Shown here piece after piece: positions 13,051-48,161 of a DNA stretch of 48,205 nt; position 1 is the first letter of the stretch, and every line of letters begins with the position of its first letter. Location: NCBI GenBank assembly GCA_027080725.1, contig JALWRC010000047.1, positions 15,573-63,777 on the forward strand. The letters are read 5' to 3'. The notes beneath the pieces are model-generated. The model saw only the letters and a list, made by a program, of their open reading frames with translations, was not told the origin of the DNA and searched no databases. Both the position numbers and the translations under genes were made by a program. This stretch comes from Saprospiraceae bacterium. Its GTDB lineage: Bacteria > Bacteroidota > Bacteroidia > Chitinophagales > Saprospiraceae.

Positions 13051-13126
13051 TGCGATGATGAAAACTCTTAGATGTTTAGTTATTTTTTGCGTGGGGCACT
13101 ACATTCAGAGAAAAATAGCTTCGGTT

Positions 13127-13160
13127 GCTATGTATATTTATTCCTTGCGCGGAGCACTAA
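13127..13160. repeat. Half of a dispersed palindromic element (GCGCGGAGCAC arm)
   Basis: Reading GCTATGTATATT, a short gap, then TTGCGCGGAGCACTAA, this matches the reverse complement of the insert in the RNase P RNA gene (37901-37935) over about 28 positions with few differences. It lies between the glycosyltransferase gene and the convergent gliding-motility-type gene. A weaker copy of the arm (GCGTGGGGCACTA) precedes it at 13090-13102. Confidence 0.6.
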
Positions 13161-15986: not shown

Positions 15987-16283
15987 TTTGGTTTCTTTTT
16001 AAAGAGGTTTAAAGTATTGCGATATTCCCCCTTTCACTACAAAACGGATCGCATTTCTTTGATTAGTTGTTAAGTGAAAGGGTGTATTTTTTAGGCTCAA
16101 AACTATCACAAAATGTGAATATACAGGAATAAAAAACAAAAGTCGTCGGATTCCTGACAGTCAATTTCGGCTTCTTGTGGAAATAGTAGTAATATGCATG
16201 TGTCATGGTTGCGCCGCTTGCTCCTTTGAGTATTTTAGGTGGTGCTTGCCAGAAGATACATCTCTAATTTTGAAGCGTTTTCT

Positions 16284-16312
16284 TGCAGGCACTAGTGCTT
16301 CAGCAACAAAGT
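16284..16312. repeat. Degenerate copy of the GCACTAGTGCTTCAG element
   Basis: GGCACTAGTGCTTCAGCAACAAAG shares the centre and right arm with the better-preserved palindrome at 16436-16477. Its left arm (TCTTGCA) has decayed. Confidence 0.6.
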
Positions 16313-16435
16313 TCATCCAGTATTAAGCGCAGCTATTTTTCTATGAATCGAGGCGCTCAAACGGGAGTTATGCCATAGCATAATGACGATTTGAGCAACA
16401 AAGAGTCAGAGGAAAAGAGCAAGCTTATACTATAT

Positions 16436-16477
16436 TTATTTTGTTCCTGACGCACTAGTGCTTCAGGAACAAAATAA
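16436..16477. repeat. 15-bp perfect inverted repeat with a palindromic loop
   Basis: The arms 16436-16450 and 16463-16477 are perfectly complementary (core TTTTGTTCCTGA / TCAGGAACAAAA). The 12-nt loop contains the 10-bp palindrome GCACTAGTGC. It lies immediately beyond the icd terminator hairpin. The loop-arm junction is repeated, decayed, at 16284-16312. Confidence 0.9.
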
Positions 16478-16511
16478 CCCCATATCGACACCTAATGGAG
16501 CGATATGGGGT
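16477..16511 (-). terminator. Terminator hairpin of isocitrate dehydrogenase gene
   Basis: ACCCCATATCG (16477-16487) pairs perfectly with CGATATGGGGT (16501-16511), 11 bp with a 13-nt loop. On the minus strand it is followed by a T-rich stretch (TTATTTTGTT). It sits 60 bp past the icd stop codon. Confidence 0.65.
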
Positions 16512-33276: not shown

Positions 33277-33324
33277 GGTATGAAATGGTGGACAGGCGGA
33301 GCACAGAATCCACCATTTCATACC
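33277..33324. repeat. Perfect 16-bp inverted repeat of GGTATGAAATGGTGGA
   Basis: GGTATGAAATGGTGGA (33277-33292) and its exact reverse complement (33309-33324) flank a 16-nt loop that reads CAGGCGGAGCACAGAA. It lies in the gap between surE and the M23 peptidase gene. The loop contains GCGGAGCAC, close to the arm of the palindromic family seen in the RNase P RNA gene. Confidence 0.92.
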
Positions 33325-37599: not shown

Positions 37600-38018
37600 A
37601 CGTGATTGGCGGGTTATCGCGCAGCAATTTGCTGTGAGGAAAGTCCGGACAGCACAAAGCACCACACCGGCTGAAAGGCCGGGCATCCGGGTGACATTCA
37701 TTTCAAACCCGTTAAGGATGACAGAAAGTGCCACAGAAAACAAACCGCCGATGTTCTTATAGAGCAGGTAAGGGTGAAAACGTGCGGTAAGAGCGCACGG
37801 CTTCCGTTGGTGACAATGGATGCAGGTAAACCTTGTGGGCTGTAATGCCATGTATATTGCGAGTTAGGATTCGCTTGATCCTGTGCCGGTGCTTGCACTT
37901 AGTGCTCCGCGTAAGAACTAAATACACGGAGCACCTTGGCCCTCGCAAGGGGTAGGCAGCTTAGATAAATGATAACCACCCGTAATGGGGACAGAATCCG
38001 GCTTATAGCCAATCACGT
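37600..38018 (+). ncRNA. rnpB: RNase P RNA, bacterial class A
   Basis: Catalytic RNA that removes tRNA 5' leaders. The ends pair as P1 (ACGTGATTGGC 37600-37610 with GCCAATCACGT 38008-38018). The universal core is present: GAGGAAAGTCCGGAC (P4 5' strand, about 37635-37649), GACAGAAAGTGCCACAGAAAA, then GGGTGAAAACGTGCGGTAAG with AGCGCAC (P11/P12 region), GGTAAACC, GGTAGGCAGCTTAGATAAATG, and ACAGAATCCGGCTTATAG (P4 3' strand). The P3 hairpin is short. The P18 hairpin that follows GGCTGCTTG in E. coli is absent, and the P15-P17 region carries a 35-nt insert made of a dispersed palindromic repeat (37901-37935). It is followed by its own terminator. Confidence 0.97.
37901..37935. repeat. Palindromic repeat element inside rnpB
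   Basis: GTGCTCCG (37902-37909) and CGGAGCAC (37927-37934) pair across the 17-nt CGTAAGAACTAAATACA. The left part with its spacer matches the reverse complement of 13127-13160, and the right part resembles 47635-47654. It falls in the variable P15-P17 segment of the RNA, away from the conserved core. Confidence 0.75.
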
Positions 38019-38051
38019 AAAAAGGGGCCCTGTAGTCAGTGCCCCTTTTTT
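38019..38051 (+). terminator. Terminator of rnpB
   Basis: AAAAAGGGGC (38019-38028) pairs with GCCCCTTTTT (38041-38050), then T. It directly abuts the 3' strand of helix P1. Confidence 0.92.
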
Positions 38052-47634: not shown

Positions 47635-47654
47635 GCTCCGCGCTATGTGTATTA
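47635..47654. repeat. Dispersed palindromic element, left arm (copy 1 at right end)
   Basis: GCTCCGCGCTATGTGTATTA. The 16 bases CTCCGCGCTATGTGTA recur exactly at 47880-47895, and GCTCCGCG followed by TGTATT matches the family seen in rnpB and at 13127-13160. Confidence 0.65.
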
Positions 47655-47879: not shown

Positions 47880-47900
47880 CTCCGCGCTATGTGTAGTATA
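47880..47900. repeat. Dispersed palindromic element, left arm (copy 2 at right end)
   Basis: CTCCGCGCTATGTGTAGTATA, 16 of the first 16 bases identical to 47636-47651. Together with the other repeats it makes the 653-bp stretch 47553-48205 a gene-free repeat mosaic. Confidence 0.65.
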
Positions 47901-47920: not shown

Positions 47921-48081
47921 CTTCTCAAATCGGCGTGTGGGATGCTACTTGAAGTCAGTACAGGACATAAGCCTGTTGTGTCCTTATAACGCTGTAGCGT
48001 CACAAGTTGTGCCTTTGTGGTTCAAATCAAAGTTGTTGATAACCACATTAGGCACATTAGGATACATTAGGGAGTTAGGTA
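47921..48081 (+). repeat. Dispersed repeat, copy C, with a nested small palindrome
   Basis: The longest copy: CTTCTCAAATCGGCGTGTGG, then TACTTGAAGTCAGTACAGGACATAA, TTGTGTCCTT, a 22-nt insert (47986-48007), TGTGCCTTTGTGGTTC, ACCACATTAGGCACATTAGG and GAGTTAGGTAG. Its left end is shared with copy B (24228) and its right end with copy A (24170). The 22-nt insert is the small palindrome family of 24335-24387 in reverse, placed between TCCTT and TGTGCC, which are adjacent in copy B. Confidence 0.85.
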
Positions 48082-48161
48082 GTGTCTGCCAGAAAACCTA
48101 TAAAAAGTTATAAATCAGCAATATATAGCTACAAATTATTTTGAATCTAATAGAGATTTAT

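Follow-up and report, generated by a model that had tools for sequence, protein, structure and literature searches.

A hairpin probably derived from a dispersed MITE lies within the RNase P RNA gene of a Saprospiraceae bacterium

The RNase P RNA gene and its hairpin

The DNA analysed here is a stretch of 48,205 nucleotides from contig JALWRC010000047.1 of a Saprospiraceae bacterium (assembly GCA_027080725.1), hereafter the window. On its forward strand it carries rnpB, encoding a class A RNase P RNA, at 37601-38021. The gene matches the RF00010 model over its full length (model positions 1-367, 214.9 bits), such that the whole conserved core is present, and it is the sole rnpB match found in the source genome (G000). 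Within the P16/P17 region of this gene, on the same strand, lies the 33-nt sequence GTGCTCCGCGTAAGAACTAAATACACGGAGCAC at 37902-37934, the arms of which, GTGCTCCG and CGGAGCAC, are able to form a hairpin; the original prediction had recognised this structure, placing its limits one base further out on either side, at 37901-37935. When the insert is folded with two bases of each flank (37900-37936), the predicted free energy is -16.7 kcal/mol (z -6.7). The exact pattern GTGCTCCG-N10..35-CGGAGCAC occurs once in the whole genome, and a slightly looser one, TGCTCCG-N8..35-CGGAGCA, occurs once in the window, against an expectation of 0.01. The 33-nt form is represented by a single occurrence, so that no movement of its own was seen.

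The insert falls in the third arm of a module enclosed by the P16 stem (37857-37948, forward strand), which comprises an outer stem pairing 37857-37863 with 37942-37948, the P17 hairpin (37865-37883, forward strand) and the arm that follows it. These elements were delimited with RNAfold and by comparison with genus g69, in which the P16 letters are nearly identical, and the names P16, P17 and P6 are assignments made in this analysis. The P17 loop, GCUU (37873-37876), could pair with AAGC (37657-37660) as P6; the corresponding sequences in g69 are GCUG and CAGC, which we read as a compensatory change in this putative pairing. Local folding retains both P16 and P17 and leaves the insert as a separate stem. 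The hairpin also forms when the whole RNA is folded, in a centroid structure without P16 and P17.

Comparison with the rnpB of relatives

The region between P15 and a GGGTAGG motif was compared across the bacterial family. The nearest rnpB sequences found, from two species of g69, are 72-74% identical over the aligned part; they have almost letter for letter the same P16, followed by P17 and then by a plain third arm of 20 nt, so that the P16-P17 module spans 60 nt in g69 versus 99 nt in the window. The module is variable in general, with extra arms at this point in many relatives. A MITE tip of the kind described below was sought in 138 rnpB loci from this family and none was found, the best score being 17/26; this agrees with the check that the original prediction proposed, although the relatives compared are not close ones. 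These loci comprise 109 from the 115 other genomes with a match and 29 from a second search, some genomes being represented twice; 31 of the 138, in which the anchor was missing, were scanned across either a broader stretch or all of it. Among these loci GTGCTCCG was seen once, at L068, slightly beyond the rnpB match. From the one further genome of the genus that was searched (G001), neither rnpB nor MITE A was obtained, and a congeneric empty site could accordingly not be shown. With the closest rnpB no more than 72-74% identical, the g69 arm is at best a tentative guide to the ancestral form.

The rnpB genes of two further genera (G227, locus L254, and G196, locus L265) have long palindromic extra arms, which in G227 include a near-perfect 18-bp stem. 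It is possible that these are independent repeat insertions.

Related sequences in the window

A 26-nt tip consensus with degenerate letters, written from the genomic copies and not blind to the two sites concerned, matches the window at 37902-37927 on the forward strand and at 13132-13157 on the reverse strand, in each case at 25 of 26 positions; in 30 mononucleotide shuffles of the window the maxima were 17-19. Lower scores are found at 13074 (reverse strand, 21/26), at 16430 (reverse strand, 18/26) and at four sites with 17/26, among them the hairpin's own right arm in rnpB. When 66 nt around the hairpin were used as a BLAST query, the matches were to tips elsewhere in the genome, with a best E value, calculated per genome, of 1.1e-4.

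The second copy that the original prediction had placed at 13127-13160 is thus real, and forms part of a longer remnant (13074-13157, reverse strand) in which the subterminal sequence of family A is joined, over 13074-13131, to a tip of a second family, B (GTGCCCCACG..., 13074-13099; L029). The same junction between A and B was also read on contigs C95, C7 and C80. Three other proposed members do not belong to the repeat, as those at 47635-47654, 47880-47900 and 33293-33308 each match the tip at fewer than 17 of 26 positions: the first two only resemble each other, and the third has a lone 8-mer. What the first two share is CTCCGCGCTATGTGTA, a separate short repeat found at 47636-47651 and 47880-47895, within 250 bases, which is not a MITE A tip.

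The 16430 match is the end of a related MITE of 161 bp (16295-16455, forward strand) with variant tips (GTGCTTCAG...) and TA on both sides, which contains the conserved core discussed below at 16333-16414 (forward strand; covariance model R1, 93.4 bits, E 1.6e-17). Immediately upstream, at 16242-16292, is a 51-bp tip-to-tip piece, read directly, that resembles a third family, C (GTGCTTGCCAGAA...TTCTTGCAGGCAC), and is a short derivative. The interval 16242-16500 as a whole is a mosaic of terminal inverted repeat (TIR) elements joined at shared CTAG: the 51-bp pair, the 161-bp MITE and a further tip fragment. One end of a family C element (TAGTGTCTGCCAGAAAACC...) lies at 48081-48110, and on contigs C1, C43 and C80 pieces related to it are intermingled with copies of MITE A.

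A MITE family dispersed through the genome

The tip sequence GTGCTCCGCG is present at 43 sites in the 3.80-Mb genome, compared with five for the backward control, and seven pairs of these sites, on opposite strands, are 153-154 bases apart. In the 30 sites that were inspected with their flanks, many proved to be the ends of one element with inverted tips, others being truncated or diverging past the tip. A search with a whole copy, in which 40 of 131 first-look candidates were scored, found at least 42 places at 150 bits or more, some of them partial or variant-tipped. Twenty-four rows are full-length, at 162-164 bp; one belongs to family B and was left out, leaving 23 copies of family A. The repeating unit is therefore this inverted-tip element, rather than the composite of two arms around an asymmetric centre that had been drawn from the window.

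The ends of the element mostly read TA-GTGC...GCAC-TA. TA flanks both sides of 15 of the 23 full family A copies and at least one side of 20; of the eight copies lacking it on one or both sides, four share a surrounding repeat and may represent one event. Adjacent copies have one CTAG in common, copies nest in one another, and further tip families, B (GTGCCCCACG) and C (GTGTCTGCC), were read at the same loci. Being short, present in many copies, devoid of a transposase gene, and bounded by terminal inverted repeats and a target-site duplication, the repeat is a MITE with a TA (or CTAG) target duplication. Correia elements likewise duplicate TA.

On contig C17 (L267), a KilA-N domain frame adjoining a Y1 transposase gene is interrupted by a copy of MITE A. 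Removal of the element together with one TA restores a stop-free frame of 116 amino acids. A tblastn search with the rejoined frame matched 24 plasmid records, each covering 80% or more of the query at a single place. The five matches listed cover 91-100% of it in one piece, four of them being annotated as KilA-N; the best, from Haliscomenobacter, has 69.8% identity over 100% of the length. No family was named by Pfam or NCBIfam for the rejoined protein. This site fits duplication of TA and of CTAG equally; TA is favoured because some copies have TA but not CTAG. MITE A itself had no match in plasmid records.

Copies of MITE A lie at, or within approximately 150 bases of, the ends of contigs C10, C19, C33, C57, C81 and C93. 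For this reason the copy number is likely to be a lower bound, and a mobile partner may have been lost in assembly gaps.

A conserved core shared across genera

A DNA search with the whole MITE found matches in 16 of 199 genomes of the bacterial family, the source genome included; outside the source genome and G166 these mostly cover the centre of the element. Tips of the GTGCTCC type were also seen in G166 and G293 (genus g77) and in G249 (g27). A covariance model of the 82-nt core (E up to 1e-3) detected the core in 69 of the 112 genera, or 176 of the 398 genomes, at most 11 candidates being scored per genome. Around 16 cores for which the element could be measured, 12 elements are 159-176 bp long and four are 183-229 bp; around three further cores the element ran off the contig. 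The tips differ among genera and mostly begin at TA. Rfam searches of four MITE-bearing loci (E up to 1) gave no credible match, the one hit at E 0.15 being far below the cut-off and outside the MITE.

An alignment of 23 centres (A2) has 83 columns and 26 predicted pairs, 17 of which show two-sided changes. Its covariation score, 0.416, exceeds the 0.172 (sd 0.014) given by 500 shuffles, and slid controls did not go above 0.102. The rows, 18 from other genera and five from the source genome, were picked by hand from a set of 56 cores, for which the search expression itself required parts of helix 3 and its loop, and the covariation counts are inflated by related sequences, by the choice of rows and by a structure drawn from the same alignment; a further alignment, A3, was fitted to the model and leans to standard pairs.

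Wobble pairs in the core are biased towards one strand. On the modelled strand, G·U outnumbers A·C by 102 to 9 in 34 sequences from other genera (74 to 9 when a conserved G·U column is set aside) and by 111 to 7 in 35 sequences from the source genome. The arms outside the core show a smaller bias, of 52 versus 18 and 47 versus 26, counted over 25 elements each, with one locus from another genus (L303, G249) included under the source genome. A purely double-stranded palindrome should show no such bias, and these patterns therefore suggest that the core acts as a structured RNA or as single-stranded DNA.

Origin of the insert

The rnpB insert corresponds to the left tip of family A (37902-37927) and the last ten letters of the right tip (37925-37934, forward strand, CACGGAGCAC), with no MITE core. 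The right end ATACACGGAGCAC, found in five other copies (on contigs C7, C23, C43, C74 and C80), is the right-arm variant seen in the insert. The left flank of the insert carries TA, the right flank does not (TTA...CTT), and the right arm is only 10 nt long. Set beside the dispersed family, the TA flanks of its members with one copy elsewhere that can be cleanly removed, the variable length of the arm and the absence of the insert from the relatives examined, the tip match makes it probable that a family A MITE was inserted in the third, variable arm of the P16-P17 module and that the hairpin is what remains of it after loss of the interior. An element of approximately 163 bp, with inverted tips and duplicating TA, would have entered the arm at full length; a deletion between short repeats (ATA) may then have removed the interior, such that the two tips now constitute a self-contained stem-loop of 33 nt. 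Transcription of the hairpin, and its retention in mature RNase P RNA as a passive extension, are presumed on three grounds: it forms a stem by itself, it disturbs neither P16 and P17 nor the probable P6, and the genome yielded no other rnpB.

The main rival to internal deletion supposes that just the left end of a MITE, approximately 34 nt, was left at the site, and that its 3' half gradually came to match the complement of the 5' tip as selection favoured a stable stem. The whole insert does align without gaps to a single left end, at 28 of 34 positions counted by hand, and the BLAST alignments of the insert extend over 34-39 nt at 85%. However, the substitutions would have had to reproduce the complement of the tip exactly, and CACGGAGCAC already exists as a right-end variant in other copies, making this the unlikelier history.

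That the hairpin is instead an ancestral rnpB helix resembling the repeat by chance would suit a module known to vary and to bear extra arms in many relatives, but is very improbable given a tip match of 25/26 against a shuffle maximum of 19, the lack of any tip in the loci of 138 relatives, and the TA that precedes the hairpin as it does other copies.

Equally improbable is movement of the sequence as a REP element by a Y1 (RAYT) transposase, as the original 'REP-like' description implied. A short dispersed palindrome would be compatible with such an origin, and the sole Y1_Tnp match of the genome, on C17, begins approximately 220 bp from a MITE A copy, the nearest to it. Yet this copy is inside the separate KilA-N frame, and the short hairpin on the one visible side of the Y1 gene, which runs to the end of the contig, is unrelated (CTACCAGCT...AGCTGGTAG). 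The family is marked by terminal inverted repeats and flanking TA, and neither a GTAG nor a CGTC tag was seen at its ends. Membership of the REP/REPtron class was consequently rejected, there being neither a tag nor a Y1 (RAYT) gene seen to be flanked by the repeat, with one end of the Y1 gene lying beyond the contig. The proposal of a mobile element within rnpB fares better, as the insert represents a dispersed family and occupies a size-variable arm next to P17 in a gene that retains its full-length RF00010 match. The earlier observation is thus partly confirmed and its interpretation partly supported: transposon-derived sequence in an essential ribozyme, contributed by the tip hairpin of a MITE rather than by a REP.

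An autonomous partner for the MITE was sought with three transposase families, PF13358, PF01609 and PF01797. The source genome contains one match to PF13358, two to PF01609 and the one to Y1_Tnp; tips were found at both ends of none of these four, those on C53 and C17 being at contig ends. On C38 (L236, 1312-1562) a variant MITE core scoring 84.8 bits lies approximately 50 bp from a DDE_Tnp_1 fragment that spans 39 of the 200 positions of the profile; on C53, an IS630-type ORF is adjoined by a variant tip piece. These pieces are probably insertions beside transposase genes, although they could point to a link.

Discussion

In the open-licence literature, no description was found of rnpB carrying a mobile element, or of MITE A itself. 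A 1997 paper by Vioque (NAR 25:3471), judged from its title, reportedly concerns short tandem repeats (STRR) in the rnpB of heterocystous cyanobacteria; these too are repetitive DNA in an RNase P RNA gene, whereas the sequence described here is the tip hairpin of a TIR element. In PMC5771137, rnpB figures only as an annotated RNA.

Among known small elements, Correia elements are described in PMC10969869 as 100-200 bp long, with inverted tips, many copies and no transposase of their own. MITE A resembles them in size, inverted tips, abundance and lack of a transposase, but differs in tip and core, and is set apart by an 82-nt core spread over 69 genera with differing tips and by the one derivative in rnpB. 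MITECca01 of Cardinium, also a member of the Bacteroidota, is characterised in PMC9769881 as a MITE of approximately 240 bp derived from IS982, with a known parent IS; like MITE A it is an abundant small TIR element without a transposase, but it differs in size, the two being distinguished here by description. REPs, which PMC3733652 describes as linked to a RAYT and tagged with GTAG or CGTC, are short dispersed palindromes, some of which lie inside genes, as does the rnpB hairpin; MITE A, in contrast, was found with TIR and TA and without tag or RAYT link. The palindromic elements of Rickettsia, approximately 150 bp long and located in protein genes according to PMC10969869, are likewise tolerated within genes, although their hosts encode proteins, and the likeness is one of description. 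Finally, the palindromic candidate structured RNAs of Bacteroidetes outlined in PMC8040213, such as HMP2_4205, share with the MITE core a palindromic, structured nature and a bacterial group; by their descriptions, the two could overlap.

A more extensive reading, offered tentatively and rather doubtful as a whole, would treat these elements as a family-wide superfamily of MITEs built from two modules. The tips would be interchangeable and serve the transposase available in each genus, whereas the constant 82-nt core with tandem G·A motifs would be kept by selection as a folded RNA or a single-stranded DNA hairpin; in rnpB, the tip hairpin would have been domesticated as a permanent arm of the RNase P RNA.

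On good evidence, the insert represents sequence of transposon origin incorporated in an essential catalytic RNA. It also marks a place at which RNase P RNA can take insertions, the relatives showing that this arm is free to vary. The most interesting part of the element is the core, which the rnpB copy has lost: its base-pair covariation, its one-strand wobble bias and its presence across 69 genera make it testable whether some MITEs are more than substrates for a transposase and contain a component that functions as RNA or single-stranded DNA.
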